Shown here: one piece after another, positions 1 to 22,325 of the stretch
How positions within the stretch are numbered: the first letter of the stretch is position 1
Layout of the letters: the number at the start of each line of letters is the position of its first letter
Assembly (NCBI GenBank): GCA_018394295.1
Contig: CP074573.1
Location: forward strand, 1-64,000
DNA length: 64,000 bases
Direction of reading: 5' to 3'
From: Mycoplasmatota bacterium
Lineage (GTDB): Bacteria > Bacillota_I > Bacilli_A > Haloplasmatales > Haloplasmataceae
Program-made: the position numbers and the translations under genes
Notes under the pieces: generated by a model
Seen by the model: the letters and a program-made list of their open reading frames with translations, nothing else
What the model was told of the DNA's origin: nothing
The model's database searches: none

Positions 1-45
1 CAACAGTAATACTATTGGACTTGATTGCAGTGACAATGTTTTTTC
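1..45 (-). repeat. Partial copy of a CATTGCCACTG hairpin element (cut by window start)
   Basis: Read on the minus strand this begins CATTGTCACTGCAATCAAGT and runs off the window. It matches copies at 1837-1950, 2015-2083 and 11349-11461. T-rich sequence flanks the outer arm, as in a bidirectional terminator. Confidence 0.5.
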
Positions 46-78
46 TTTGGTGTGAGTATTTAAGTAATATAATTTTAA

Positions 79-198
79 CTTTTTCTATCATATATAGAAA
101 GTATTTTTATTGATATAGAAGAATATGGTATACTATATGTTGAGTATTATAATGGAAGTGAATTAAAAGAATATTATTGGTATGAAAAGGGGAAATGA
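79..198 (+). pseudogene. C-terminal gene fragment upstream of the first small gene
   Basis: An open frame of about 39 codons begins right after a TAA and ends in a TGA that overlaps the next start (TGATG arrangement). Its translation ends with a tyrosine-rich stretch (…YYWYEKGK) and looks like real coding sequence. There is no ATG and no ribosome binding site. I read it as the surviving tail of a gene whose front was lost when the repeat at position 1 arrived. The function is unknown, and a chance open frame is possible. Confidence 0.3.
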
Positions 199-587
199 TG
201 TTTAATTTTTTTAAAGAGAAATTTAATAAACATATTAGAAAGATAACAGATGAGAATAAAGAAATGATATTAAATATAATATTTAATGAATCACTTGAGT
301 GGGGGAGGAAAAGGATGAGACCCATTAATGAATTAACGATAAAAAAATTCCCCAAACTTAATAGTAATGATATTACCAAAATATCTAAATATATAGAATC
401 TGCAAGGAATGATATTTTTGGACAAATAGAAAAAAATTATTTAATTAATTTAAATAATCTTAAAGAGATTGAAACTTATATTAAAAAAGAAGCTGAATTT
501 CATATTAAAAATAATTATCCATGGATGAATAGTGAAAATATAAAAAGAGTAATCAATCAAGGCTTTTATTATGCATGGCACGGTTAA
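195..587 (+). CDS. Hypothetical protein, 130 aa
   Basis: A highly charged, mostly helical small protein (MMFNFFKEKF…) with no signal peptide or membrane segment. I do not recognise the family. An AAGGGG ribosome binding site lies just upstream, and either of two adjacent ATGs (195 or 198) could be used. It is followed 44 bp later by a tRNA-Trp anticodon-arm copy and then a terminator. That pattern repeats behind the next two genes, so I regard this as cargo of a cassette-like accretion array. An orphan immunity protein is possible from context only. Confidence 0.6.
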   Translation: MMFNFFKEKFNKHIRKITDENKEMILNIIFNESLEWGRKRMRPINELTIKKFPKLNSNDITKISKYIESARNDIFGQIEKNYLINLNNLKEIETYIKKEAEFHIKNNYPWMNSENIKRVINQGFYYAWHG

Positions 588-630
588 TATTAAATCTTAC
601 ATAAATGATTTTAGAATAAATAATTGCATA

Positions 631-646
631 TTCGGACTCCAAAACC
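631..646 (+). repeat. tRNA-Trp anticodon-arm fragment, copy 1
   Basis: TTCGGACTCCAAAACC differs by one base from the core TTCGGTCTCCAAAACCG, the anticodon stem-loop of bacterial tRNA-Trp (anticodon CCA). No acceptor, D or T arm is present. It lies 44 bp after the stop of the preceding gene. Confidence 0.55.
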
Positions 647-659
647 ATATATACAACAT

Positions 660-686
660 GAAGTCTTTTTTAGGCTTCTTTTTTAT
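660..686 (+). terminator. Rho-independent terminator
   Basis: GAAGTC pairs with GGCTTC around a T-rich loop, and a run of T follows. It ends the 195-587 transcript. Confidence 0.6.
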
Positions 687-718
687 AGTATAATGTAGTG
701 TAAGGAGTAGGTGGTTAA

Positions 719-1123
719 ATGGTTAATTTTTTTAGGGCAAGAAAAATAAAAAATGAATTGCCAAGTATAGAGAATAGCAAAAAATTCTTAAAAGATATGT
801 TAATATTCTTAGGTTCTGAATATGATGTTCAATGCTCAATGATTGAAGAATTTGCACTATGGAATTTATCAGATGATATTGCAAGTGAATGGTATTGGGA
901 TTATTTTAGCATCTTTGTAAATGTACTGTTAGAAGATAACATAATTACTGATAAGATTGCTGATGAATTTAAAACAATTGCTGATGAGTTTGATTTGAGG
1001 TCTAGAGGCGGAGATTTGTTTGATGAATATATTTGGACTCATGAAGGACTAAAAAATCATGTGTTTTGGTCTGAACAGAGACAAAGAGCAATGGCATTAT
1101 ATAAGTACATGGATAAATTATAA
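719..1123 (+). CDS. Hypothetical protein, 134 aa, immunity-like
   Basis: A soluble acidic protein rich in Trp, Tyr, Asp and Glu (…ASEWYWDYFSIF…) with a conserved-looking RSRGGDLFDEYIWT segment. Small acidic proteins of this composition are common among polymorphic-toxin immunity proteins, but I cannot assign a family. The start follows AAGGAGTAGGTGG. A tRNA-Trp-like arm begins 16 bp after the stop. There is no toxin gene beside it, so it would be an orphan immunity gene if that guess is right. Confidence 0.6.
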   Translation: MVNFFRARKIKNELPSIENSKKFLKDMLIFLGSEYDVQCSMIEEFALWNLSDDIASEWYWDYFSIFVNVLLEDNIITDKIADEFKTIADEFDLRSRGGDLFDEYIWTHEGLKNHVFWSEQRQRAMALYKYMDKL

Positions 1124-1138
1124 TGATATTTAAGCGTT

Positions 1139-1155
1139 TTCGGTCTCCAAAACCG
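1139..1155 (+). repeat. tRNA-Trp anticodon-arm fragment, copy 2 (perfect core)
   Basis: TTCGGTCTCCAAAACCG matches a tRNA-Trp anticodon stem (CGGT/ACCG) and loop CTCCAAA with anticodon CCA. The preceding GCGTTTTCGG resembles the D-stem/position 26 junction. It lies 16 bp downstream of the preceding stop codon, and no complete tRNA can be folded around it. Confidence 0.65.
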
Positions 1156-1233
1156 TTTTATTAGAAAAAGGATTTTGCACAAGTATATAAAAATCTTGTT
1201 ATTTTATATTTGTTTAAAAGGGAGATGATTTAG

Positions 1234-1662
1234 ATGAAAGGATTTTACGGTGATAAGGTTAATAATAAGTATGGTGTTAAGCAACTTGATGGAAAAATAG
1301 AAAGTGTATTCTTTGGAACTTATAGTTTTATGAATCTAATATTATTTTTGTATCTTTGTATTTTTTATCAAATCAAAGTTATTGATATTATAATTTTTAT
1401 TATAATTATAATTATGAGTTCATTAGTTTCATATATATACAGAAATGTTTATATAAATCAAAAGAAAAGAAAACCTAAAAAAACAGATCAATGGATACCG
1501 ATTACTTCATTTGTGTTAATTTTGTTTTTTTCATTTATTACTATGTATATGGGGGTTCATATCAGTGAACTAACAAATATAAATCTTTATAAGAATATTG
1601 GATTAGCACTTGCGTTTGTTATTGTAATTTTTAGTACATTATTTTTAATCATTAAAGAATAG
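1234..1662 (+). CDS. Hypothetical membrane protein, 142 aa, four predicted TM helices
   Basis: Hydrophobic segments at about residues 28-47, 49-70, 89-106 and 118-139 are separated by a basic loop (NQKKRKPKKTDQW). This predicts a four-helix integral membrane protein with a soluble N-terminus. A GGGAGATGA ribosome binding site precedes the ATG. The family is not recognised. It is the third gene of the small-gene row, again followed 28 bp later by a tRNA-Trp-like arm. Confidence 0.6.
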   Translation: MKGFYGDKVNNKYGVKQLDGKIESVFFGTYSFMNLILFLYLCIFYQIKVIDIIIFIIIIIMSSLVSYIYRNVYINQKKRKPKKTDQWIPITSFVLILFFSFITMYMGVHISELTNINLYKNIGLALAFVIVIFSTLFLIIKE

Positions 1663-1689
1663 ATACATTGAAAGGGAAAACGCTGTATT

Positions 1690-1706
1690 TTCGGTCTCTA
1701 AAACCG
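1690..1706 (+). repeat. tRNA-Trp anticodon-arm fragment, copy 3 (CTA in the anticodon position)
   Basis: TTCGGTCTCTAAAACCG carries one change from copy 2, turning the anticodon position CCA into CTA. A hairpin (CAGTT…AACTG) follows, but no proper T arm or acceptor stem, so it is a fragment and not a suppressor tRNA. Confidence 0.6.
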
Positions 1707-1836
1707 TCAGTTCGGTTTCAATTAACTGAAATAAGCAGTTGTTCATATTAAATATAAGTTATCCAACCTAAATGAGATAAAAGTTCTGGACAAAACTACA
1801 TTGTTATCAATTTTAATACTCTTTAAATTTCAAAAT

Positions 1837-1950
1837 CATTGCCACTGAAATCAAGTCTCATATCACAGACTCAGTTGCTCATTTACTTGCAATGGTTTTT
1901 CTATTGTATATACTAGGTCTACTTCCTACACATCCTATTGATGAAGTGTG
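1837..1950 (+). repeat. CATTGCCACTG hairpin element with 3' extension
   Basis: CATTGC at 1837 pairs with GCAATG at 1889-1894, followed by a T run. The internal segment ACAGACTCAGTTGCTCATT and the downstream TAGGTC…CTACACAT block are shared with 11349-11461. It is probably a mobile or structured terminator-like repeat. Confidence 0.6.
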
Positions 1951-2014
1951 AAGCTCCTTGACCTCTCTGTAATGTAGATACTGATTATGCCTTTCACCTT
2001 TCAACATAAAAAAA

Positions 2015-2083
2015 CATTGCCACTCTTGAGCAACTGAGTCAATAGTAGTAGCGTTACTATTGTACTTGGTTGCAGTGGCAATG
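2015..2083 (-). repeat. CATTGCCACTG hairpin element, inverted copy
   Basis: CATTGCCACT pairs with AGTGGCAATG at 2074-2083. The internal GAGCAACTGAGTC is the exact reverse complement of 1868-1880, so this copy faces the one at 1837. Both arms abut A/T runs, consistent with a two-way terminator. Confidence 0.6.
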
Positions 2084-2190
2084 TTATATCAAAATTTTGC
2101 AAGAAAATTAGTTTCTATATTAACCAAGGGAGTAATATTAAATTCTATTCCAATAAGTTAAGTAGTCTTATCTTCTTAGGATAGATTTAA

Positions 2191-2331
2191 CTACCAGTTA
2201 CGATGTTCTTCTGTGATATCATAATCAAAGATAAATCCTAGATTGTTTCCAGTTAAATTGATAAATTCATAAATTAGTTCTCTTTCATTTGTTGGTAGTG
2301 TAAAAGTTTTTCTTAAAACCAATACAAAACC
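2191..2331 (-). pseudogene. Truncated C-terminal gene fragment next to a transposase gene
   Basis: On the minus strand about 46 codons read as convincing protein (…FTLPTNERELIYEF…, ending DITEEHRNW). There is no start codon, and a stop lies immediately upstream where the transposase locus begins. I read it as the tail of an accessory gene truncated by that insertion. Family not recognised. Confidence 0.5.
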
Positions 2332-2425
2332 TTATATATATTTTGTTTTTATTCTATAATAAGTATCCCCCCCTGTATTTTGGAGGTTGCTCGTTATATT
2401 TTTTTATCATATAAATACAAAAAGA

Positions 2426-2477
2426 TAGATACCCCTGATATAATTAAGTCACCACAACCAACCATACAGGGGGTATC
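2426..2477 (+). promoter_or_regulatory. Hairpin sequestering the transposase ribosome binding site
   Basis: The arms AGATACCCCTG and CAGGGGGTATCT are complementary, and the second arm contains the ribosome binding site of the gene starting at 2482. Translation control is inferred. Confidence 0.5.
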
Positions 2478-2481
2478 TATC

Positions 2482-3909
2482 ATGGTTAAAATTATATCAG
2501 TTCTTTCAGTATTTTTAAAGTATTTAAACAAACTACTTTATAAATTTATTCTTTTTCTAGATTCGCACATTATTTCTACACATAGTTCTAAGTCATCTGG
2601 CACTTATTATGAACCTTTTAGGAAGTTCACTGTTGATGGTGAACCTATTATTCAGAAGGTTGAAAAGCTAGATTATCAAGAATTGTTTAATGTGTATTTT
2701 TTAAAGTACAATAAGCAATTAAAACCTGTTTCTAGAAGAAATCCATCAAAACTTGATTTCAAAGGAAATTGCCCTATTTGTGGTGCTCCTCATGATTACA
2801 TATATGAAAATAATATTAAATCAAAACAGTTACTTTGTAAGGTATGTAGTCATACATTTACCTTGAATAATGATTTTCTTGAAAAGATTATTTTAAAATG
2901 TCCTCATTGTTCAAAGAACCTTGAAAGAATTAAAGACCGTAATAGTTATATTATTTATAAATGTAGACATAAGAATTGTTCCTTCTATTTAGATAAATTA
3001 AAGAAATTAACACCAGATCAATTAAAACAATTCAAAAAGAAACCAGGTAAATTTAAACTTCATTATAACTATCGTGCTTTCGATATTAACTTTGATTCCC
3101 TAGAACGTGACTCTATGTCTAATTTAAATATGAAGGTTGATTTAGCCAATATCAGACATTCTAAGCATACTCTAGGCTTAATCTTAACGTATTACGTTAA
3201 CTACGGTTTGTCGAGTAGGAAAACTGCAGCTATCATGTATGATATTCACCAAGTTAAGATTTCCCATCAAACCGTGATGAATTATGCAAATAGTGTTTCT
3301 ACAATGATTCGTCCCTTACTTGAAAATTACCCATATGATTTATCATCTGACCTTTGTGGGGATGAAACATATGTTAGGGTTAAGGGGAAGAAGCATTATA
3401 TCTTCTTCTTCTCAGATAAAATTAAAAAGATTATTACTTCTTATCAAGTTTTTAGTAAACGTGATACTTTTTCAGCAGTCGTTTCACTATATCAAACATT
3501 CAAAAAATACACTGAACTACCTAAGAATTTGAAAGTAGTTGTGGATGGTAATCCTATTTACAACGTTGCATGGTCATACTTTAAAAGCATGAACATAAAT
3601 TTCGATTTATTTCAAGTTATAGGACTCACTAATAACACGAAAACAGACAAGGATTACCGTCCATTTAAACAAGTAACTGAGCGTTTAAATAGAACTTTCA
3701 AAGACGATTATATCCAAATGAACGGATTTGGTAATATCAAGAGCGCTAATGCTTATATGGTCTTGTTTACAACGTTTTTTAACTTTCTAAGACCACATAA
3801 ATCGTTAGGTTATAACCCACCTGTTAAATTAGAAGAGTTTGATGATTTACCTCATATGCCAAGCAAATGGCTTTCTCTAATAGATATGAGTTACTCTTAT
3901 ATAAACTAA
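2482..3909 (+). CDS. DDE-type transposase with zinc-ribbon N-terminus (IS6/IS240-like), 475 aa
   Basis: Two zinc-binding clusters in the first half (CPICG…CKVC and CPHC…CRHKNC) precede an HTH-like region and a catalytic core. Candidate acidic residues lie in DETYVRVKGKKHY, VVVDGNP and TERLNRTFKDDY, with the terminal RPHKSLGYNPP box typical of IS6/IS240-like enzymes. A longer TTG-initiated frame begins at 2380. ATG 2482 is preferred because CAGGGGGT sits 8 bp upstream. The ribosome binding site is inside a hairpin (AGATACCCCTG / CAGGGGGTATCT, 2426-2477), which would mask it in read-through transcripts, a common way transposases limit expression. The frame is intact. Terminal inverted repeats were not convincingly located. 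Confidence 0.85.
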   Translation: MVKIISVLSVFLKYLNKLLYKFILFLDSHIISTHSSKSSGTYYEPFRKFTVDGEPIIQKVEKLDYQELFNVYFLKYNKQLKPVSRRNPSKLDFKGNCPICGAPHDYIYENNIKSKQLLCKVCSHTFTLNNDFLEKIILKCPHCSKNLERIKDRNSYIIYKCRHKNCSFYLDKLKKLTPDQLKQFKKKPGKFKLHYNYRAFDINFDSLERDSMSNLNMKVDLANIRHSKHTLGLILTYYVNYGLSSRKTAAIMYDIHQVKISHQTVMNYANSVSTMIRPLLENYPYDLSSDLCGDETYVRVKGKKHYIFFFSDKIKKIITSYQVFSKRDTFSAVVSLYQTFKKYTELPKNLKVVVDGNPIYNVAWSYFKSMNINFDLFQVIGLTNNTKTDKDYRPFKQVTERLNRTFKDDYIQMNGFGNIKSANAYMVLFTTFFNFLRPHKSLGYNPPVKLEEFDDLPHMPSKWLSLIDMSYSYIN

Positions 3910-3935
3910 TTCTTAACTAAGGAGTATCTCTATTT

Positions 3936-3963
3936 AAGCGTATTTGAATATGCTTTTTTTTAT
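3936..3963 (+). terminator. Terminator after the transposase gene
   Basis: AAGCGTAT pairs with ATATGCTT, followed by eight T residues. Confidence 0.7.
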
Positions 3964-3988
3964 TTACATAAAATGCATAGTACGATTA

Positions 3989-4032
3989 AACTGAGTATTG
4001 TAGTCCAACACACTACAAATTCAGTTCTTTTT
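3989..4032. terminator. Bidirectional terminator between convergent genes
   Basis: AACTGA…GTAGT pairs with ACTAC…TCAGTT, with a T run on the plus side. It separates the transposase gene from the minus-strand gene ending at 4079. Confidence 0.6.
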
Positions 4033-4078
4033 ATTTTTGATTATAGAGTTTTTATGTGTTTTCATAATTTATTTGACA

Positions 4079-5044
4079 CTACCCATTTGTTTCTATTAAT
4101 TGATAATCAGAATCTTCATTCAGATTATTTAATTCAACTACATATTCTTTTACTATTTTTAAAAAGTCTTCTTTTGTCTTCCACGCTCTAGCATTAAAGT
4201 CAAATTCATATGAACATAATCTAAAAGACTCAATATTTTTCTTTATGTTTCGATTCAATGTTTCATTGAATTCATGAAATTCTTTCATTAAATTTACTAT
4301 TTCTTCTATACTTGAAATTTCTTTATTAATTTTGATTGTTTTTTTCTTTCTTTTCAATTTCTTTTTTTCTTCAATTACATATCCATCATCTAAAACATCA
4401 GGATTCATAATTAATGCTCTTGCAATATCATAGATAATACCCAAACCTTCTGATTTAGTAGATCCATAGTACTTGGGTACATAGTTAATTTTATCTCCTT
4501 CTATATTGCAATAATCCTTAATTTCTTTTTTAGTTGTTTTCATTTCCTTAGTTTCTTCATCAAATTTACTAGAAGTTACAGAACATCCATATAAAAAGCC
4601 AATATCAAAATTTCTTTCTTCTTCTGATAGAGGAATGTTACCAATAACTTTCGCAAAACCAGAGTTGAAGAAATAACCTATTGTTAAGTATGGTCGCATC
4701 AACAAATTATTTAAGTCTAGTGGTTTATCAGGCATTTTAACATCATTAGTTGCAATCTTATAAAAAAGAATAACATAATCAGGTTTTCTTTGGTTATCCT
4801 TGTCCATTATATTTACAGAAGTACTTAGTACTTTACCATAAATATAACATCCTTTCTGAACCTGAACTACAAAAATATCACCTTCTCTTATTTCACCATC
4901 GTAACCTTTAAAAAACAAACCCTTATCTAATAGATTCAACTTCTTAGATAATATATCTAATTTCTTTTTTATTTCCTTTGGTTGTGTTTCATAGGTTTCT
5001 AAATACTGCTTTGTAAAATAGTCAATTTGTTGAGTAAAAAACAT
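4079..5044 (-). CDS. Imm26-like immunity-family protein, 321 aa
   Basis: A lysine-rich helical N-terminus (residues 1-50) is followed by a domain starting EGDIFVVQVQKGCYIYGKVL. This resembles the Imm26 signature (GD-x-F-x-[IV]-x-L … Y-x-[FY]-G-[RK]-V-L) and runs to about residue 160. The C-terminal half is charged and helical, with a KLKRKKKTIKIN segment. Imm26 proteins are typically immunity partners of polymorphic toxins. No toxin gene is adjacent, so this would be an orphan copy. An AGGGGGG ribosome binding site lies 8 bp before the ATG at 5044. It is longer than single-domain Imm26 proteins, and the C-terminal part is unassigned. Confidence 0.6.
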   Translation of the reverse strand: MFFTQQIDYFTKQYLETYETQPKEIKKKLDILSKKLNLLDKGLFFKGYDGEIREGDIFVVQVQKGCYIYGKVLSTSVNIMDKDNQRKPDYVILFYKIATNDVKMPDKPLDLNNLLMRPYLTIGYFFNSGFAKVIGNIPLSEEERNFDIGFLYGCSVTSSKFDEETKEMKTTKKEIKDYCNIEGDKINYVPKYYGSTKSEGLGIIYDIARALIMNPDVLDDGYVIEEKKKLKRKKKTIKINKEISSIEEIVNLMKEFHEFNETLNRNIKKNIESFRLCSYEFDFNARAWKTKEDFLKIVKEYVVELNNLNEDSDYQLIETNG

Positions 5045-5097
5045 TTTAATATCCCCCCTATTATTCTAAAAATAGTATTCATTTAATACTTTCACTA

Positions 5098-5695
5098 ATC
5101 TTACTCAAATCCCATAAACTCAACAACAATTATACCATATTATTACAGTGCTTATGTAAAAAATAATTATGTGGGGTATTTTGAATCGAATTATTCATTT
5201 TATCCATATGATTTTTGCACAGATAAACATCGTAATTTAATAACAGACTTTAAGGTGATTGCATTTGATAAAGAAGGTAAAACTGTAGCACTATCTGAAA
5301 AAATGAATTTTAATATTAAGAATGAGTTATACACAAATATATACGGGAGAATAACTTATAATCAAGAGGATAATGAATTTGTAAAAGATACACATACAAG
5401 AGATCTTGGTGTAATAGGTTTTATACTTGTGCTGGTTTTATCTCCGATTGCATACTTTAAGTATTTTCTAGTATCTATTTTAATAGAGTATTTTACTGCA
5501 TTTTTTATGAAATTCAAAAGAAAGTTTACTGCTTTTGTAATATTAGTTAATGCTATTTCTAAAGCTTTGATGTATGCAAGTTACTCACTTAGTAGTATAA
5601 ATTATTTAAGATTTTTACTTATATCTGAAATTATAATTTATATAACTGAAGGTATTGTGTATTTACTTTTCTTTAATAACGAAGATAAGAAATAA
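5098..5695 (+). pseudogene. 5'-truncated membrane protein (C-terminal part)
   Basis: The frame is open from a TAA at 5095-5097 to 5695. It has no ATG start, and the only in-frame conventional start is a GTG at 5171 without a ribosome binding site. The translation is convincing: a soluble Tyr-rich part (YESNYSFYPYD-like) then hydrophobic segments at roughly residues 80-100, 120-140 and 145-170 counted from the GTG. I read it as the remainder of a larger membrane protein that lost its N-terminus when the divergent gene and its promoter arrived. Use of the GTG start cannot be excluded, giving a 174-aa protein (5171-5695). Family not recognised. Confidence 0.5.
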
Positions 5696-5840
5696 ATAAT
5701 TATTTATACAATAGTTGCAAATACTCTATCTTTATTAGTTGGATTAATTATGTTATGGTTTTTTAAGGATTTTAGATTCTCTTTAATTTTATTCTAATGT
5801 TATCAACAATTTTTTAGTAAGCGTCAAATATAACACACAT

Positions 5841-5873
5841 AAAAAATCCTCATTAACTAAAATGAGGATTTTT
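5841..5873. terminator. Terminator at the IS66 left end (duplicated copy)
   Basis: AATCCTCATT pairs with AATGAGGATT between A and T runs. The same structure recurs about 2 kb on, behind tnpC. Confidence 0.7.
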
Positions 5874-5924
5874 CTTATGTGTTTAATTTACAATTTTCAG
5901 GTAGTTCATCGTAAGCGTCAAATA

Positions 5925-7815
5925 GGTTCTTTCCAAAGTTATTGGAATTTTATGTAAAAATATGTTATAATAAAGGTATCAAAAGTGGAGGTACCTTATG
6001 GACGAAATAATTAAAATGCTTGACGAAAGTCTTGATTACATATCACATGAGTTAATTGATGATACTTTATACATTAATGTAAAATCAAATAAGGAGTCAC
6101 TCCCATGTCCTCTATGCGGAGAGGAAAGTACAAAAGTACATTCTAGATACAATAAAAGCTTTCAGGACTTGCCATTACAGGGGAAAAAAGTTGTTATTGC
6201 ACTAAAAAATAAAAATATGTTCTGTACAAATCCAAATTGTAAGAAGTATACATTCTCAGAAAGCTTTGGTTTTATTGATCAAAAAGGCAAGAAAACGAAA
6301 AGATTAATTGATGAAATTATACGAGTTTCTTTGACACAAAGTTCTATATCGGCGGCAAAATACCTTTCAGATACGACCGTTGAAATCAAGAAAAGCTCAA
6401 TTTGTAATTACCTAAAAAAAAACTCTAGTCATAAACAAGAGTGAAGTTAAATATGTCTGTATAGATGACTTTGCGATAAAAAAGAGAAAATCATATGGAA
6501 CAATTATGGTAGATATTGAAACTAAATGTATTATAGACTTATTAGAATCAAGAGATAGTATGAAAGTTACGGAATGGCTTACTACGTTTCCAAATATTAA
6601 ACTCGTCTCACGTGACGGCTCAACAACTTATCGCTCGGCTATTGCAGACGCTCATCCTAAAGCCACTCAGGTAAGTGATCGTTTTCATTTAGTTAAAAAT
6701 TTAGTGAAATCCATATCAAAGTATATGAAACGAATAATTACAGGTCGCATTGAAATACCACTCATATCACAAGATGGAAAGAAACGTTATGATTATCTTT
6801 GTGGTTTAAGCCGTAGAGAAAAAATTATTGAAGCCAGGCGTTTATATGCAAAGGAAGGAAATAGCTATGATACGATTGGAAATAAGTTAGGTGTTTCACC
6901 AACAACAGTTGCTAAATATATAAAAATGAAGGAAGAAGATATACCTAAAGAGAAAATAACTGTACGTGGAAAAGAGCACATCAACGCCATTTCGAAAGTG
7001 GAACAGAAAAGAAATAAGGTGCTAGAATTATGGAATAAAGGGTATACAAAAAGAGACATATCAAAGAAAACAGGATATAGCACTACAAGCATTGATACTT
7101 ATCTCAAAGGTGAATTCAATCCTGTGCACGGACAATATGGAACAGGCCGAAATGGTAAATTAATGCCATTTAGAGATGAAGTTATTGATATGCGTGCTAA
7201 TGGGATAACATATAAGAAGATTACAGAACATATAAGGGAAAAAGGATACACAGGAACTGTAGATGGATTGAGATTTTTTATCTCAAAAGAAAAGCGTTTA
7301 GCTAAAGACACCTCATCTACAAAAGAACCTACAGAATTTTTAGACAAACGTTTGATCAATAAATTATTATATAAACCACTTGAAAAGGTAAAAGGGATCA
7401 CGGAGAATCAATTGAATGAATTTTTCAAAAAATATCCAGACATAAAAGTACTCTTTGAAAGACTAAAAGAATTCAGACTTTTGTTACTTGAAGATACAGA
7501 AGACAGTTTAAGTAAATGGATTAAACGGGCAAGAGAATCTGAAATTCAGGAAATTGATAGTTTCATTAATGGTATACAAAATGACCAAGATGCCGTAGAA
7601 AATGCCATAAAGTATAGTTATAATAACGGTCTAGCAGAAGGAAGTGTTAATAAACTAAAATCTATAAAAAGGATTATGTATGGCAGAAATAAATTTGATC
7701 TACTGAGGTCTAAAGTATTATTATTGGAATCATTAAAATGATAGATTTAAGTAAAGTAGGCAAATAAAGTCTACTATTAATTTTTACTATAAATTCAATA
7801 ACTTTGGAAAGAACC
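5925..7815 (+). mobile_element. ISL3-family insertion sequence
   Basis: The terminal inverted repeats are GGTTCTTTCCAAAGTTATTG at 5925 and its near-perfect inverse ending at 7815. An 8-bp direct repeat GTCAAATA (5917-5924 and 7816-7823) flanks it, and that sequence is part of the IS66 terminal repeat. It is 1,891 bp long with a single ISL3-type transposase gene broken by a frameshift. Confidence 0.9.
5998..7741 (+). pseudogene. ISL3-family transposase, frameshifted
   Basis: The first frame (5998-6444) carries the N-terminal zinc finger (CPLCG … CTNPNCKKY) and HTH part. The second (to 7741) carries the DDE catalytic region with two HTH-like segments (YDTIGNKLGVSPTTVAKY and YTKRDISKKTGYSTTSID). 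Between them, after a run of nine A at about 6414-6422, the correct continuation (KTLVINKSEVKYVCIDDFAIKK) is in the -1 frame, so one base too many in the A run breaks the gene. The combined length of about 560 aa is near or slightly above the family norm. Ribosome binding site GGAGG precedes ATG 5998. Slippage on the A run might restore some product. Confidence 0.85.
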
Positions 7816-7865
7816 GTCAAATATAACACACATAAAAAATCCTCATTAACTAAAATGAGGATTTC

Positions 7866-9433
7866 TTATGTGTTTAATTTACAATTTTCAGGTAGTTCAT
7901 CTGACCAAGGTAATAATGTGTCTAGAATTTGTTCATCATTCAAATCTACATTTGGTAATCTATCAAATAAATAGGTTAGATATTCAATTGGTTTTATATT
8001 ATTCTCCTTCGCGGTTTCAATAACACTATATATGATGGCACTTGATTTTGCTCCTTTAGGAGTATTAGAGAATAACCAGTTTTTTCTTCCAATCACGAAA
8101 GGTTTAATTGATCTTTCAGCTCTATTATTATCAATTTCTAATCTTCCATCAAGTAGGTATCTTCCAAGATTATCCCATTGATTGAGACAATATTTAATAG
8201 CTTTACCAAGTTTACAATTAGGTAAAATTTCTTCTGCTTGATTTTTAAGCCATACTAAAAAATCATCCAAAATCTCTCGACTGTCATTATTTCTTATTTC
8301 ATACTTTTCTTCAGGTGTTAAGTCCATTATTTTATGCTCAATTGAGTATAACTGATTACAGAAAGTTAATCCCTCTTTCGCAATGGACACATCATCACTC
8401 GATAGAGCTTTTACTATTTCGGCAAATCCTCTCCTCGCATGTGCCCAGCACCCAACAAGTATTACATTAGGAATATTATGATATCCAGTATATGCATCCA
8501 CCTGAAGATATCCTTTAAATCCTTCAAGAAACTCTTCGGGATGTTTACCTGCTCTTGTCGTCTGATAATCATATAAAACAATTGCTTTCCCCTCTGAACC
8601 TGTTCGATAAAGCCACATGTAGGACTTTGATTTTGCTTCTCTCCCGTTTTCCTTCAATACTTGGGTAGTTGTCTCATCTGCATGTAGGATATCTTTTTGA
8701 AGTAATAATTTATGCATACGATTATATAAGATTTCCAACCAAGCAGCACCTTTAATTACCCAGTTAGAAAGATTTTGTCGCGGTAAAAATATTCCCAATC
8801 TTTCAAATTGTTTCTCTTGTCTGTAAAGAGGTAACCCATTTGTATATTTTTGATCCATTATATACGCAATTAAAGATGATGAAGCTAAGCTTCCTGGTAT
8901 TGCAGGATAAGGCATATTAGCTTTTATTATAGGCGTTCTAATTTCACTTTTCTCACATAATCGACAGGATACTATATGACGGATATGTTTCTTGATTTTT
9001 ACTTTAGGCGGAATAACTACAATTTCAGTTCTTTCTTCAGTACTCATTTCATGAAGTAGAAAACCACATTGTGGACAATCTTTTTCTTCAGGATAATAAT
9101 GTATTTCTTCAACAGGAAGAGTTTTTAAATAATCAGTACTTTTTTTCGTCCTTTTTTATTTCTAGTATAGGTAATTTTTTCAAGTTTAGGTTCTTCGCGA
9201 TTTAAATTTGATTCCTTTTCAGCTTCATTAAATAATTCTAGACTTTGTTGATTAGGATCAATTTTCTCGCTAGAAGATCCAAAACGCTTTTGTTGATATA
9301 ATTTAAAGAACTCTTCATAATTTTTCACTTTATTTTGAAGTTCTACTATTTCAGAATCTTGTGATGAGATATATTCAATTAATTCTTCTTTAGTTAGTTT
9401 ATTTAAGTCTACTTTTTTCATTGCTTTTCTCAC
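7866..9433 (-). pseudogene. tnpC: IS66 transposase TnpC, frameshifted
   Basis: The N-terminal part (9433-9125) has the coiled-coil leader of IS66 transposases (LTKEELIEYISSQDSEIVEL). The C-terminal part (open from about 9143 to 7866) has the zinc finger CPQCG/CRLC, the PAIPGSLASSSLIAYI segment, the DDE residues (HADETTTQVL, VDAYTGY) and the ERSIKPFVIGRKNWLF box with catalytic Glu. The join is a run of seven A in CGAAAAAAAGT, where a -1 shift fuses the two frames. The combined length of about 520 aa matches the family. The sequence A_AAA_AAA is also a legal -1 slippery heptamer, so read-through at low level is possible. Mutation or an assembly error is the simpler reading. Confidence 0.88.
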
Positions 9434-9498
9434 CTTTTTTTGATACTTTATTTTACCATAAAATTAGAAAAAAGTCTAATTATATAAAGAAAAGGGGA

Positions 9499-9852
9499 CT
9501 ATACAATTCCCCTTTGCTTAACCTCTTTAAAGGCCTTTCCATTACGTATTTCATAACCATCTAAAAACCAATAAAATTCTTTTAAAGTCGCACTTGTAAT
9601 CTCCTGTTCACTTTTAGGCCAATTAAATTTACCACTTTCTAATCGTTTTTTATATATCCAAAACCCATTATAATCCCAATGTAAAATTTTTAAAATTTGT
9701 CTACTTTTATTACAGAAAACAAATAAGTTATTTGAAAATGGATCTAAATCAAACTGTTTTTTTACAATAAGAGATAGTCCATCAATTGATTTTCTTAAAT
9801 CAGTATATCCTGTCGCGAAATAAACTGTTTTTACGTCCTTGAGGCTAATCAT
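9499..9852 (-). CDS. tnpB: IS66 accessory protein TnpB, 117 aa
   Basis: The full-length TnpB signature is present: VYFATGYTDLRKSIDGL at the start, then LFVFCNKSRQILKILHWD and GFWIYKKRLESGKFNWP. TnpB is required for IS66 transposition, although its biochemical role is unclear. The start overlaps the stop of tnpA by 4 bp (ATGA), which indicates translational coupling. It lies between tnpA and tnpC as in all canonical IS66 elements. Confidence 0.95.
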   Translation of the reverse strand: MISLKDVKTVYFATGYTDLRKSIDGLSLIVKKQFDLDPFSNNLFVFCNKSRQILKILHWDYNGFWIYKKRLESGKFNWPKSEQEITSATLKEFYWFLDGYEIRNGKAFKEVKQRGIV

Positions 9853-10166
9853 AATTCTGATAACACCTTTACCACATCTTTTAAATGATTCCCGTTGAAC
9901 CCTGGTTCAACCTTTATATTACATTTTCCTATTTTAATCGTTATACATTTTTCTTCATTCATTTCAACCATTTCATGATTAACAGGAATGGGTATCCAAT
10001 TAATTTCTTGTGCTTGATTTTCATTTTGATTATTCTTTTTAATCCAATATAGAAGTTGATGTAATTTATACCCATTTTCCCTACACCATTTTGATTTTGA
10101 TAATCCACTTTTTTGATATTCTTCAATTCTTTCTTTCCATTCAGATCTTAACTTATTATAATTCAT
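9849..10166 (-). CDS. tnpA: IS66 accessory protein TnpA, 105 aa
   Basis: A small protein with the typical N-terminal HTH-like motif (WKERIEEYQKSGLSKSKWCRENGYKLHQLLYWIKK), presumed to bind DNA and regulate transposition. It is the first gene of the IS66 operon, preceded on the minus strand by AGGAGGATTTTATA and ATG at 10166. Its stop overlaps the tnpB start. The frame is intact. Confidence 0.93.
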   Translation of the reverse strand: MNYNKLRSEWKERIEEYQKSGLSKSKWCRENGYKLHQLLYWIKKNNQNENQAQEINWIPIPVNHEMVEMNEEKCITIKIGKCNIKVEPGFNGNHLKDVVKVLSEL

Positions 10167-10382
10167 TATAAAATCCTCCTAACATATTAGCTAAGAGGAT
10201 TATCTCATATTATTTTCATAAATTAAATGTGTGCTATATTGTACGCTTACATTTTTTATAACAGCGCCTTATTAATCTTTCTTCAACTGTTTTCTAAAAA
10301 TGGAGGTTATATTTTAATAAATGATAAGTCAATTTGACCTTTTTGTTTTCCAAGTATCTCCTTCACTTCACAAACTTTTAAC

Positions 10383-10630
10383 CTTGATCAACAATCTGAT
10401 AAATTCAAGTTATATGAAAGTTCATTGAATTCAGTATGTGCAGAGATTAATAAGATAGTTTCAAAATAATGTTATGATATTAAATCATGTGATTTAACAG
10501 AAAACCAACAAAAGTTCATTGATCATTAATAAAAATTTATTCGATTCTAATCAATATGAATTTTTATATAGAATATTCAAAGCAAATGATACTGAATACT
10601 TGAGATATATAATTATAGATACAATCTAGT
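10383..10630 (+). pseudogene. Decayed accessory gene
   Basis: Two protein-like stretches in different frames are separated by stops: one begins LDQQSDKFKLYESSLNSV, the other reads SNQYEFLYRIFKANDTEYLR. Together they look like a hypothetical gene broken by frameshifts and stop codons. It sits between the IS66 right end and the next intact gene and may have been inactivated by that insertion. The family is unknown. The rest of 10259-10382 shows nothing definite. Confidence 0.45.
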
Positions 10631-10709
10631 GATAATTTTAGAACAAAAGGAAATTTACTAACGGATTTTAATAATTTTAATAAAAGTAAAAGAAATAAGG
10701 AGTATATAC

Positions 10710-11315
10710 ATGAATGTTGTAAGAGAGATATTTAACAATTTAAATAATAGGAATGTAAATGATGCCATAGCTATTTTAACTAAAAACTTAGAATTAATTG
10801 AAGAACAGCAAAGAGTTAAAATTGATAATTCATCTATTGAGCATGCTGTTAAACTTTTACACAAAAATAAGTATGAAAGTATGTTTTGGGAATCGATAAT
10901 TTTTTCACTTGATATTGAATCAATAACAGATGAATTAATTTTATATTTAATTAAATATAATATTGCTACTTCAGAATTAGCGCACTCAGATATTGGTGAT
11001 AAATGGTTACTTATTTTAGGAAAGGAATATATAGAAGCATACCAAACATTAATTGTAAGATATTTTACTAATGGTAATATATATTATAAAAGTAAACATG
11101 CTACAGTTATTGAATTTGAAGAACTTCTAGGTGAAATAGGTGTTAATGAGTATTTAATGGATTGGGTAGTAGGTAGCCACTATTTAACTCCAGATGATAT
11201 CAAGAAATTAGATTTACTGTATAAATATATAATTAATAATACTAATTTTGATAAAGAACTAAAAGATAAAACTGAAAAATACTATTTAAATAAAATCAAT
11301 ATTTTCCAGTCATAG
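10710..11315 (+). CDS. Hypothetical protein, 201 aa, helical
   Basis: An all-helical soluble acidic protein (MNVVREIFNNLNNRNVNDAI…) with no signal peptide. Helix-pair spacing suggests a HEAT/ARM-like or immunity-type fold, but I do not recognise the family. AAGGAG ends 11 bp before the ATG. It is followed by a copy of the CATTGC hairpin element, which probably terminates it. The decayed gene just upstream has similar composition and may have been a relative. Confidence 0.6.
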   Translation: MNVVREIFNNLNNRNVNDAIAILTKNLELIEEQQRVKIDNSSIEHAVKLLHKNKYESMFWESIIFSLDIESITDELILYLIKYNIATSELAHSDIGDKWLLILGKEYIEAYQTLIVRYFTNGNIYYKSKHATVIEFEELLGEIGVNEYLMDWVVGSHYLTPDDIKKLDLLYKYIINNTNFDKELKDKTEKYYLNKINIFQS

Positions 11316-11348
11316 TAAAGTTCAGCATTTATATTATTTCAAGTAAAC

Positions 11349-11461
11349 CATTGCAACTGTAATCTAGTCTAACATCACAGACTTAGTCGCTCATTATAGG
11401 CAATGGTTTTTTTGTTGTTATAACATAGGTCAACTTGCTACACATGTTATTGATCAAAAGT
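11349..11461 (+). repeat. CATTGCCACTG hairpin element with 3' extension
   Basis: CATTGC at 11349 pairs with GCAATGG near 11400, followed by a T run. The internal ATCACAGACT-x-AGT-x-GCTCATT and the downstream TAGGTC…CTACACAT block match 1837-1950 at most positions. Confidence 0.65.
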
Positions 11462-11636
11462 TAGGCTATAACACCTATTAATAGGATGTAAAGCAATTTG
11501 TCCTCAAATCAAGTCTTTCACTGTGAAGTGAACATTATTGTGACATTTTTGATTGTTAATATTAAATACTATTTTATTATACATTTTTTAAGTATAATGT
11601 AATTATAAATATTATCTTAAAATTTAGGGGGGAACT

Positions 11637-12172
11637 ATGATTACATTTGATGATATCATGAAGGAAATAGCTAAGAAAGAAGCAGAATATAAGAAACTTA
11701 GAAAAAGTGAGGTAGCTTCAATACCTGATTATGAGTTAAGAGAAGCGGTAATATACTGGATGAGAGGGATGTTTAAAAAGGATTGGTCTGATGAATATGA
11801 GGTAATTAAAAAATTGCCTAAATCTTGTCAATATGTTTATTCTTGTTGTGCTATTATGGATGAAGTATTAAATGGGGGATTTGAACAACTATACGTTAAC
11901 TCAACAGCAAGAGATATAGAAACAGCTTTACACGGATTTATAGATATTGGAACTGAAGATATTTTTAACTACTAGCAGAATCTCTTAATATTTACAATCA
12001 AAATACAGATATTATTGAAGGACATGATGATGGAACAGTTGAAAATTTTTCTAAGTTATATGAAGAAGAACTCTTTGATAAATAAAACAATGAATTCAGC
12101 GATGTAGAAGTGAACTTTGAACAAAAGCTAATTGCATATATAATAAGTAATGGAACTTCTTTCGGGTTCTAA
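11637..12172 (+). pseudogene. DUF4375/DMP19-family protein, frameshifted and interrupted
   Basis: The first 112 codons (11637-11975) contain the family core: YVYSCCAIMDEVLNGGFEQL, then NSTARDIETALHGFIDIGTEDI. After the stop at 11973 the protein continues in another frame (LAESLNIYNQNTDIIEG…LYEEELFDK), meets a second stop at the family's LDdxF-like position, and runs on to 12172 in the same frame (NNEFSDVEVNFEQKLIAYII). There is thus one frameshift and one nonsense change. GGGGGGA lies 8 bp before the ATG. DUF4375 proteins are often found among immunity or accessory genes. The 112-aa N-terminal product may still be made. Confidence 0.65.
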
Positions 12173-12244
12173 GCGTTATAACATAATCTGTCTTTATGCA
12201 ACCATATAGGAACAATCTATTGTCCCAATACAATATAACATCAA

Positions 12245-12274
12245 AAAGAGCGATATCATATTAATCGCTCTTTG
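12245..12274. terminator. Bidirectional terminator
   Basis: AAAGAGCGAT pairs with ATCGCTCTTT around a 9-base loop, with A and T flanks. Confidence 0.8.
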
Positions 12275-12297
12275 TTATTGAACTTTATCAAATTGCC

Positions 12298-12455
12298 TTA
12301 CCTTTCACCATTGTAAATACTAACAATAACATGTTTACTTAGGTGTAAATACTTTTGAGTTGTTCTTAAGGTATTGTTACCTAATAATAATCTTAGTATA
12401 TCTAAATCTTCACCCTTTCTTATAATATTTGTAGGAAATGTATGTCACCATTTAC
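12298..12455 (-). pseudogene. Tyrosine-recombinase (integrase) C-terminal relic
   Basis: Read on the minus strand: an HTFPTNIIRKGEDLDI segment, then LLLGNNTLRTTQKYLHLSKH, ending NGER and a stop. This is the C-terminal catalytic segment of XerC/D-type integrases (HTFAT…LLGHxSxxTTxxYxH). The tyrosine nucleophile is retained, the LLGH histidine is Asn, and a stop precedes the first His. The upstream catalytic domain is missing. It lies about 140 bp from an orphan tRNA-Phe 3' half, the usual arrangement of an integrase beside its att site. Confidence 0.75.
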
Positions 12456-12469
12456 TTAGGGGGAGTACA

Positions 12470-12568
12470 ATGCATATATATTCTAAAAAGAACAATATTA
12501 AAAGAAAGAAATTAAAATATGCTCAGGTCTCTCCTTTTGTAGTAGAAAAATATATACCGGATAAATAA
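12470..12568 (+). CDS. Possible 32-aa basic peptide
   Basis: ATG with a strong AGGGGGA site 6-10 bp upstream starts a lysine-rich peptide (MHIYSKKNNIKRKKLKYAQV…YIPDK). It may be the first part of a gene lost at the tRNA fragment, or noise. It overlaps the integrase relic's promoter side on the other strand. No family is recognised. Confidence 0.25.
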   Translation: MHIYSKKNNIKRKKLKYAQVSPFVVEKYIPDK

Positions 12569-12597
12569 TAATTAGAAGTCTTTGTAATCTCAATTTT

Positions 12598-12645
12598 GGA
12601 GCGAAAATCCTTGTGTCGGCAATTCGATTCTGCCCCGAACCACCA
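12598..12645 (+). repeat. Orphan 3' half of a tRNA-Phe gene (att-site remnant)
   Basis: This 48-bp segment aligns colinearly and without gaps to the 3' half of bacillar tRNA-Phe: GGA..GAAAATCC anticodon arm (GAA), TTGTGTCGGC, TTCGATTC T-loop, and CCGAACCACCA with encoded CCA. No 5' acceptor or D arm lies upstream, and the T stem carries a mismatch, so it is not a working tRNA. A tRNA 3' half beside an integrase relic is typical of an attL/attR left by an integrative element. Confidence 0.75.
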
Positions 12646-12817
12646 TTTTAAATTATTGTATCTATGTTTTTATATTTATAGATAACTATTATCAATCATT
12701 AATTATTATCTGAATCTGTAGAAATTTGTCATTTTTATCAAGAAGTTACTACAGTTATATTTACAATTACACGCTTACATTATATAATTAATATATTATG
12801 ATTTAGGAGGAATATTT

Positions 12818-13639
12818 ATGAAATGTAAGCTATTTTTGGTAGCATTCGTAGCATTATCTTTACTAACTGCATGTAGTAGTAAAGAAAAAACAGAATATGA
12901 GATTTTCAATGAACTATTTAGTAAAGCTGTAGAAAAAATAAATGATAGTGACAGCTATACATTACATGAAAATTCATATTATAACTTTGAAATTAATTCA
13001 AAGACTGTAAGAACATCACTAAAAACAACATCCGATGTGATAAGTGATCCTTACTATTATAAAGGATTAATTACACAAAATATTAGTAATGTTGGAAAAG
13101 TAGATTCTCATGTCTTAGTTTTACAAGATGGTGAAAACTATAAAATGTATACTAAGGTTAATGGTTACGTTGCCGAGAATACACAAACAAAAAAAGAATT
13201 TGAGAAAAATCATGTAAATAATGAATTAAATATCACTTTAAAAAGAATACCTGAAACAGTAGAAAAGATAGAAGAAAAATCGGTAAATGATGAAAAAATC
13301 GTAACTTATGAAACGAAATTTACATTAAATGACATAGAGTCAGAAGATCAGATATTATTTGACCAACTTCTTGAATTTTATATTAGTGATACTTCAACTA
13401 ATACAGATTTATTGGATATTGAGATAACTGAAACAATCGTATTAAATCATACAACTGAAGAATTTGTTTCTATTTCGTATGATATGACAGATTTTTTAAC
13501 TAAAGCATTTAATGATTACTTAAATATACACAACCTAGATTGGGATATATTAAATCCTATAAGTGGTTATTCATTTCAATTTAGTAATTTAAACAATGTT
13601 AGTAAAGATACAACATATATCAATCAAATGACCAAATAA
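12818..13639 (+). CDS. Putative lipoprotein, 273 aa
   Basis: The signal peptide MKCKLFLVAFVALSLLTAC ends in a lipobox (LTAC), predicting lipid modification at Cys19 and attachment to the outer face of the membrane. The mature part (about 255 aa) is rich in Thr, Glu and Asn and reads like a beta-rich domain with DSYTLHENSYYNFEI near its start. The large lipoprotein at 35988 has a similar plan (lipobox, linker, then a NYTL-type strand), though similarity is too low to claim homology by eye. AGGAGG lies 7 bp before ATG. Its terminator was the target of the IS1182 element that follows. Confidence 0.75.
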   Translation: MKCKLFLVAFVALSLLTACSSKEKTEYEIFNELFSKAVEKINDSDSYTLHENSYYNFEINSKTVRTSLKTTSDVISDPYYYKGLITQNISNVGKVDSHVLVLQDGENYKMYTKVNGYVAENTQTKKEFEKNHVNNELNITLKRIPETVEKIEEKSVNDEKIVTYETKFTLNDIESEDQILFDQLLEFYISDTSTNTDLLDIEITETIVLNHTTEEFVSISYDMTDFLTKAFNDYLNIHNLDWDILNPISGYSFQFSNLNNVSKDTTYINQMTK

Positions 13640-20950: not shown

Positions 20951-20963
20951 TGAGGTGAAGCAA

Positions 20964-22325
20964 ATGAAAGATAATTTTCAGACATTACTTACAATAAAAC
21001 GACTAGGAATCAATGGTGAAGGAATCGGTTATTATAAACGCAAAGCAGTTTTTGTTGATGGTGCACTTCCTAATGAAAAGGTTATTTGTCAATTTACGAA
21101 AGAGCACCGTAATTATTTAGAAGGAAAAACAATTAAAATTATAAAACGTTCAGAAAATCGTGTGGATGCACCATGTCCCTATTTTGGAAGATGTGGTGGT
21201 TGTCAACTTCAACATTTAGATTATAAAGAACAATTAAAAATGAAAAAAGATATTGTTATTCAAGCATTAGAACGTTATTTACCGAATTATGAAAATTTAA
21301 ATATTAATATTAAAGATACAATTGGAATGGATAATCCTTATAATTATCGTAATAAAGCCCAAATGCCAGTTGCTTTTGATGGAGACAAAGTCGTTACAGG
21401 ATTATACGAAGCGAATTCTAATCGTTTGGTTCATATTAATAAATGTATCATTCAAGATGAGATGGTAAATAAAGTTGTTAATACAATTAAACAACTTTTA
21501 ATTAAATATCATATTATGGTATTTAATCGTCGTTTTAAAAGTGGTATTTTAAGATATATATCAGTTCGCTATATTGAAAATACCAAACAGTGTCAAGTGG
21601 TTCTTGTATTAAAGGAAAAAGATTTACAATATATGAGTAAAATAGCTCATGATTTAATGCAAGAAATACCTGAGGTTACTTCTTTTTACGTTAATATTAA
21701 TCCTGAAGTAAGAACCTTTGAAATTTATGGAAAAGAATATATTCATATTACTGGTAGAAAAACAATTGAGGCTAAAATTGGTGAATCTAAGTTTATTTTA
21801 TCACCACAATCTTTTTATCAGCTAAATACAGAACAAACAAAAGTCTTATATGATGTTGTAAAAAATACAATTGCCTTTAAGAAAACAGATAAAATCATTG
21901 ATGCTTATTGTGGAGCAGGAACGATTGGTATTTATCTAGCAAATGATGTAGAAGAAGTTCGTGGTGTTGATAAAACAACGCAAGCAATCAATGATGCCAA
22001 AAATAATGCCGCATTAAATGAATTAAAAAATACCCGTTTTGAAGCAGGTGAATCAGAAAAAATAATTCCAAAATGGATTGAAGAAGGGTTTAAACCAGAT
22101 ATTTTAATCATGGACCCACCAAGAACAGGAATTGATGATAAATTACTAGGTGTTTTACGTAAAGTAAAAACCAAAAAGGTAATCTATATTTCATGTAATC
22201 CATCTACTTTAGCAAAAGACTTAAATGAATTAAGAAAAGTATATCATATAAAATCTATACAACCAGTTGATATGTTTCCACAAACGTCACACATCGAGAG
22301 TGTGGTATTGCTAGTAAGGAAATAG
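20964..22325 (+). CDS. rlmCD: 23S rRNA (uracil-C5)-methyltransferase RlmCD/RumA family, 453 aa
   Basis: It methylates U747 and/or U1939 of 23S rRNA using SAM. An N-terminal TRAM domain is followed by the Fe-S cysteines in CPYFGRCGGCQLQHLDY, the AdoMet site DAYCGAGTIGIYLA, and DPPRTGIDDKLL. The catalytic cysteine and loop are in YISCNPSTLAKDL, and the conserved C-terminus is HIESVVLLVRK. ATG 20964 follows TGAGGTGAAG; an in-frame GTG at 20955 overlaps that site. The last 37 bp (22289-22325), the terminator and downstream sequence are the parental copy of the repeats found down to 40.8 kb, so the gene's 3' end serves as an integration site. Elements integrated there restore the C-terminal codons. 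Confidence 0.95.
   Translation: MKDNFQTLLTIKRLGINGEGIGYYKRKAVFVDGALPNEKVICQFTKEHRNYLEGKTIKIIKRSENRVDAPCPYFGRCGGCQLQHLDYKEQLKMKKDIVIQALERYLPNYENLNINIKDTIGMDNPYNYRNKAQMPVAFDGDKVVTGLYEANSNRLVHINKCIIQDEMVNKVVNTIKQLLIKYHIMVFNRRFKSGILRYISVRYIENTKQCQVVLVLKEKDLQYMSKIAHDLMQEIPEVTSFYVNINPEVRTFEIYGKEYIHITGRKTIEAKIGESKFILSPQSFYQLNTEQTKVLYDVVKNTIAFKKTDKIIDAYCGAGTIGIYLANDVEEVRGVDKTTQAINDAKNNAALNELKNTRFEAGESEKIIPKWIEEGFKPDILIMDPPRTGIDDKLLGVLRKVKTKKVIYISCNPSTLAKDLNELRKVYHIKSIQPVDMFPQTSHIESVVLLVRK

Follow-up and report, generated by a model that had tools for sequence, protein, structure and literature searches.

Putative one-gene cassettes with tRNA-Trp-derived attachment sites in Izimaplasma-type bacteria and their relatives

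Introduction

The textbook example of gene-by-gene collection is the integron. The array described here is like an integron in that mostly one-gene cassettes follow each other head to tail and in the same orientation, with one site per gene; it is unlike an integron in the type of site and in the presence of a cassette terminator behind the core. Other systems with which the array can be compared include: (i) the class A islands of Islander, in which a tyrosine integrase lies by a tRNA gene, an intact tRNA marks one end of the island, a displaced 3' fragment marks the other and crossover takes place in the anticodon arm (PMC4383910), (ii) fGI-2 of Methylopumilus, a variable, additive island that is rich in unknown genes and marked by direct repeats of partial tRNA (PMC10872708), and (iii) tycheposons, which have tRNA-bordered cargo and a tyrosine recombinase (as described in PMC10872708).

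The anticodon-centred islands of Islander number 2083 and include only 4 tandems of three or more, a tandem being recognised only if each member has its own integrase (PMC4383910). By contrast, most units of the present arrays are of one gene and have no integrase, and the arrays reach about ten sites; thus, integrase-less arrays would be missed by Islander, as by any island finder that needs one integrase per tandem member. The repeat of fGI-2 is the last 20 nt of tRNA-Lys (PMC10872708), whereas the cassette site consists of the anticodon arm and a left arm of non-tRNA sequence; unlike in fGI-2, a site lies behind nearly every gene and the integrase clade is identified. Tycheposons measure 4-200 kb (PMC10872708), a size range well above that of the integrase-less cassettes (about 0.3-1.3 kb). 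In published terms, the system may be viewed as combining anticodon-type tRNA islands (PMC4383910) with additive tRNA-repeat islands (PMC10872708). The literature searched contains no description of integrase-less arrays of one-gene units that share an extended site, which does not prove novelty, and the sole match for Izimaplasma together with integrase is a Bulleidia paper that mentions Izimaplasma once.

The array and its sites

The window (the whole stretch of DNA analysed, 64,000 nucleotides) is the start of contig C1 in a genome assembly of two contigs. Close to its left end are three genes of mutually unrelated products (Table 1). A preliminary description had noted that each of these small genes is followed by a copy of the tRNA-Trp anticodon arm, at 44, 16 and 28 bp; the layout is real, and the measured gaps from the stop codon to the 17-mer TTCGGTCTCCAAAACCG are one shorter (43, 15 and 27 bp). 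By pattern search of the window, the 17-mer is found at 1139-1155 (no mismatches), 1690-1706 (one mismatch) and 631-647 (two mismatches), all on the + strand; the chance expectation at up to three mismatches is 0.04 for the window, and none of 100 shuffles had three copies. Fifteen bases, CGGTCTCCAAAACCG, are exactly the anticodon stem and loop of tRNA-Trp and are identical at 15/15 positions in copy 2, in agreement with the earlier identification of the segments as copies of a tRNA-Trp anticodon-arm attachment site. The suspicion that the 17-mer might be a common repeat is not borne out genome-wide (3.29 Mb, up to two mismatches), as the sole match beyond the array lies inside the tRNA-Trp gene (C1:3193112-3193185).

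Table 1. Coordinates of the cassette array and of the right end of the enclosing island, in window positions
Feature	Position	Strand	Remarks
Cassette gene 1	195..587	+	ORF, 130 aa; weak LytTR match, Pfam E 7e-6 over half of the domain
Site copy 1, decayed, GCATATTCGGACTCCAAAACCA	626..647	+	Weight-matrix rank 3; left arm p = 0.0057
Terminator-like hairpin just 3' of site 1	658..680	+	GAAGTC...GGCTTC and T run
Cassette gene 2, probable orphan immunity gene	719..1123	+	134 aa; paralog behind RHS-repeat gene
Site copy 2, intact, GCGTTTTCGGTCTCCAAAACCG	1134..1155	+	Weight-matrix rank 2; left arm p = 0.0097
Terminator-like hairpin 3' of site 2	1179..1199	+	
Cassette gene 3	1234..1662	+	ORF, 142 aa; membrane protein predicted by composition
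Site copy 3, one loop change, GTATTTTCGGTCTCTAAAACCG	1685..1706	+	Weight-matrix rank 1; left arm p = 0.00015
Decayed tRNA-Trp 3' half behind site 3, attR-like end	1707..1725	+	13/19 identical in register, p = 1.3e-4
Remnant of tRNA-adjacent tyrosine integrase family	12283..12465	-	E 2e-11, 41% to P0001 residues 236-296
tRNA-Phe-type attR, right end of island	12592..12651	+	AATTTT arm, anticodon arm and tRNA-Phe 3' half

The site continues leftward into a conserved arm of non-tRNA sequence, and this left arm is present in all three window copies. The extended consensus, TGYATTTTMGGTCTCCAAMACCG, is drawn from 45 aligned sites of same-class relatives. A position-weight matrix trained only on other genomes, with the source genome left out, places the three window sites at ranks 1, 2 and 3 (36.3, 32.3 and 23.2 bits), compared to 9.9 bits for the next position and 12.8 bits for the best score in 40 Markov-simulated windows; the training sites had been selected for TTT immediately left of the core, so that the weights there are raised, while the window null is untouched. 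Searched as an exact pattern in one genome per species (84,980 species), the extended site occurs in 18 stretches, all titled Izimaplasma (HR2, ZiA1 and Tobar14m), Mycoplasmatota zrk6, Bathyoplasma, Tenericutes or similar uncultured Firmicutes. IMG/VR yields neither a match to the site nor a relative of the integrase. Among the tRNA anticodon arms looked for in the window and the array loci, only the Trp, Phe and Arg types recur. The sequence common to the arrays, tRNA-Trp and the tRNA 3' halves starts at the anticodon arm, which points to crossover in the anticodon arm of the target tRNA. The reading of these sequences as attachment sites for an integrase-driven cassette system is well supported.

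No relative of gene 1 turned up in 57 other genomes and none of gene 3 in 46, while the sole relative of gene 2 is a paralog in its own genome, with no match among PLSDB plasmids. Thus, the further concern that the genes might occur together elsewhere as an operon finds no counterpart in these searches. Gene 3 matches no family above the cut-off, and the AlphaFold models of genes 1 and 2 are of low confidence (pLDDT 58 and 43). The hairpin behind site 1 matches Izimaplasma cassettes (L103, L104, L106 and L153) in stem and offset. Gene 1 has no core on its upstream side, where a hairpin repeat element and the contig joint interrupt the sequence.

Arrays in related genomes

Same-class relatives have many such sites, and the accretion of one gene with one core, proposed earlier for the window, is recurrent in these genomes (mostly MAGs, with genes taken as mechanical ORFs). 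Downstream of an intact tRNA-Trp, G040 (ZiA1) and G367 carry cassettes; behind their cores stands the tRNA 3' half, in keeping with restoration of the tRNA at each insertion. In G018, about 8-10 sites spaced 0.3-0.9 kb apart have mostly one same-strand gene between them; elsewhere, a few intervals have two genes or an opposite-strand ORF. The median distance from a same-strand stop codon to the site is 52 bp, compared to 564 bp at random positions. Terminator-like hairpins come after the core in 34 of 51 cases and before it in 10 of 51 (13% at random) and include: (i) a GAAGTC/GGCTTC stem about 12 bp behind the core, which is also the stem at window site 1 (10 bp), and (ii) a hairpin about 44 bp behind the core, past the tRNA 3' half. 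One locus labelled Clostridia (L157) is 100% identical over 2078 bp to a contig of G367 and is not counted as an independent lineage. No cassette common to two distinct species with different neighbours was found among the compared genomes.

Filled and empty loci, and one locus with differing cassettes, are seen behind housekeeping genes, whose names (mutS, msrB and recN) are read from the protein sequence and not from annotation. In G018, a 7.6-kb insert between mutS and msrB bears an array, while the two genes lie side by side, with no cores, in five relatives (G051, G075, G131, G248 and G221). Behind recN, strains HR2 and MC-10 share a site and terminator and then differ in the cassette gene (78 versus 177 aa). 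Both comparisons, as read from sequence, show insertion and turnover, and neither identifies the enzyme. These arrays of G018 (behind mutS) and HR2/MC-10 (behind recN) lie away from tRNA genes, a placement that would require secondary targets or rearrangement. In G303 and G097 (L095, L096, L097 and L100), Trp- and Phe-type sites alternate, in places at a distance of only about 10 bp, as if cassettes with two end types were nested in each other.

The associated integrases

The genome of zrk6 (G021) encodes P0001, a 301-aa PF00589 integrase at L022:6978-7883 that ends 67 bp from tRNA-Trp. The element at this tRNA (L022, C1:1-8024) has, besides the integrase, a Viral_Rep (CRESS-type) replication protein and is a possible autonomous carrier of cassette sites. 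The integrases of this clade are arranged antisense with the 3' end toward the tRNA, be it tRNA-Trp (G276), tRNA-Phe (G111, G097 and G001) or tRNA-Arg (G018 and G248), at distances of 67-99 bp behind tRNA-Trp (G021 and G276), 97 bp behind tRNA-Phe (G111) and 86 bp behind tRNA-Arg (G018); one member, at tRNA-Thr, is in the opposite orientation. Intact integrases are found in G001, G021, G276, G111, G018 and G248, and the source genome has an intact homolog (C1:2340086-2340943) that is the sister of the G001 tRNA-Phe integrase in the tree. The tRNA-adjacent integrases form one side of the tree (99/95 support). Since the Trp-, Phe- and Arg-adjacent members are not cleanly split by tRNA, we infer the pairing of integrases and sites, including which integrase acts on the Trp site, from adjacency.

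The layout is repeated with other tRNAs. G111 (L145) has a tRNA-Phe array with sites at 78, 703 and 1248 and a different left arm (TGC..GAAACGACTGAAAATCC), together with tRNA-Phe (5696-5771) and its adjacent integrase. In Izimaplasma HR2 (L149, contig 28), tRNA-Arg (10850-10926) has an integrase of the same clade and five tRNA-Arg-type copies (170, 619, 1387, 4175 and 6612), most with the tRNA-Arg 3' half.

Genomic setting

The supposition that the region lies directly at tRNA-Trp does not hold. The gene after tRNA-Trp is tRNA-His, with a gap of 18 bp and no insert between them, and the array lies approximately 3.2 kb past tRNA-Trp across the contig joint, beyond ten tRNA genes and a transposase that we take, by resemblance, to be ISL3-like. 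With tRNA-His this close, tRNA-Trp was dropped as a candidate for the local attB. The end and start of C1 are bridged by an unbroken hairpin repeat element; the joined copy aligns through the joint to an inverted copy at 1780-1960, and its alignment to the copy at about 2011-2090 is better than that of either half alone. Thus, C1 most likely forms a circle, in which window position 1 would follow C1:3195757 and the terminal cluster of sixteen tRNA genes would lie just upstream of it. The element, with ends AACATTGC and GCAATGTT, has several copies (L005:19930 to window 45, 1780-2090 and 11345-11420), of which one spans the contig joint and another interrupts the gene that precedes gene 1.

The cluster ends in an intact tRNA-Phe (L005:18245-18320), which forms the left end of an island, the other end of which is a displaced tRNA-Phe fragment with few mismatches to tRNA-Phe from the anticodon arm onward (attR, Table 1). 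The Trp-type array taken alone has only a decayed tRNA 3' half. The island contains four transposase loci, an Imm26 gene, the three cassettes and an integrase remnant, which has two stops and keeps the region of the catalytic Tyr; no intact integrase was found in the island. A 12.1-kb element that encodes an integrase of this clade occupies the same tRNA-Phe of the sister genome G001; thus, tRNA-Phe is a local hot spot of integration. The Trp-type cassettes appear from this arrangement to be lodgers within the tRNA-Phe island. As the island integrase is only a remnant, the window array is likely a relic and a decayed outlier, unless it is served in trans. The Imm26-domain protein and a DMP19-like protein of this island (window 4079-5044 and 11637-11975) fit a defence or immunity cargo.

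Proposed mechanism and alternatives

Genes 1-3 are very probably integrase-less, mostly one-gene cassettes of a site-specific recombination system with tRNA-derived sites. Each cassette would end in a cassette-borne left arm (TGYATTTT) joined to the tRNA-Trp anticodon arm, in which the stem halves would serve as inverted repeats and the 7-nt loop as the likely place of crossover. A tyrosine integrase of the clade behind tRNA-Trp, tRNA-Phe and tRNA-Arg is proposed to recombine circular cassettes, excised and mobilised in trans, into tRNA-Trp or an existing cassette site; thus, genes would pile up head to tail in integron fashion. The tRNA 3' half borne by many cassettes would keep the tRNA gene whole, and the terminator just behind the core would insulate neighbouring cassettes. 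In the source genome, the array lies inside an older tRNA-Phe island that was later invaded by IS elements.

It is highly improbable that the 17-mers serve as terminators of transcription or belong to a common repeat between genes, unlinked to recombination: their position right after genes, their capacity for a 4-bp hairpin and the terminator-like hairpins close by would suit such a role, but the conserved T run is upstream of the 17-mer hairpin rather than downstream, the actual terminators are distinct hairpins located 10-45 bp beyond the 17-mer, and the only other match in the genome is tRNA-Trp. The existence of loci with and without arrays also counts against this explanation, and the many copies with a full tRNA 3' half in other genomes, together with the turnover of sites, largely refute it. 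A tRNA-like anticodon arm might instead act on the transcript as a processing or regulatory signal behind each gene, and its sense orientation at every 3' end would suit such a role. Yet the window has no Rfam match over positions 1-13000, copy 1 breaks the stem, the left arm is conserved as well as the hairpin, and the same layout recurs with tRNA-Phe and tRNA-Arg arms and an adjacent integrase. An RNA element is likewise highly improbable. A genuine integron (IntI and attC), whole or in part, is ranked equally low. While the mostly single gene per site, the common orientation, the stop-to-site distances of tens of bp and the cargo (unknown genes, acetyltransferases, methyltransferases and immunity-like genes) are those of an integron, the consensus of the 45 sites lacks the GTTRRRY attC core and the R''-L''-L'-R' arms and is instead a tRNA anticodon arm, the linked integrase is, by the general PF00589 model, an ordinary PF00589 protein beside tRNA genes, and neither IntI nor attI was seen.

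Whether the window copies were assembled where they now lie is a question of history in the source genome only, and a passive origin is a sub-case of the cassette explanation. The chances are even that a foreign piece of array arrived with the tRNA-Phe island or by homologous recombination and was never assembled in this lineage. The unoccupied tRNA-Trp, the small number of copies (only three, and decaying), the lack of any other Trp-type site in the source genome and of any in G001 at one mismatch, and the mixed Phe/Trp arrays of G303 and G097 all favour passive arrival; against it, the intact integrase of the tRNA-adjacent clade in the source genome (C1:2340086-2340943) could have acted.

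The cassette system itself is best read as an integron-like collector. In its widest form, for which the balance tips only slightly in favour, Izimaplasma-type bacteria and relatives would practise an integron-like capture in which anticodon arms replace attI/attC and sister integrases, each specialised on tRNA-Trp, tRNA-Phe or tRNA-Arg, gather mostly one-gene cassettes that lack an integrase and bring their own terminators, at tRNAs and at secondary sites behind housekeeping genes, stockpiling immunity and other accessory genes. If true, one-gene cassette arrays can evolve from the standard machinery of genomic islands (ordinary tRNA-targeting integrases), and many unknown small genes of Izimaplasma and relatives would be accounted for. 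Some of the array genomes are complete assemblies of named strains, in which excision, site specificity and cassette turnover are directly testable.

Cassette cargo

The 35 cassette proteins, including the three of the window, have no dominant family. Single or double matches are to methyltransferases, GNAT acetyltransferases, NERD, HTH, GerA, DUFs and an Imm5-like immunity protein, the last from G303 (L095). The position just behind an RHS-repeat gene is the usual one for an immunity gene. The gene 2 paralog (36% identical) lies 10 bp behind a 2251-aa RHS-repeat gene of the same genome (L185:9696-16854, which is C1:1344.7-1351.9 kb), and the two likely form a toxin-immunity pair; thus, gene 2 is probably an orphan immunity gene. 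Orphan immunity genes on mobile islands are also reported for the acquired interbacterial defence islands of Bacteroidales (PMC12247911, PMC10470768). The parallels here are gene 2, the Imm5-like cassette gene of G303 and the Imm26 gene of the same island. Unlike the Bacteroidales islands, the present arrays belong to another phylum and have another recombination site, and only part of their cargo is immunity-like.

The preliminary description had also drawn a parallel to an array at rlmCD in the window. That array is real, but its core differs, and the parallel is reduced to an analogy. The 3' end of rlmCD (ORF 20955-22325) recurs as TCGAGAGTGTGGTA and about 50 bp in six copies of graded decay (22294, 24856, 25834, 30729, 32191 and 35596), with a cargo that includes a pretoxin-HINT protein, a KptA-type phosphotransferase and an ABC transporter.
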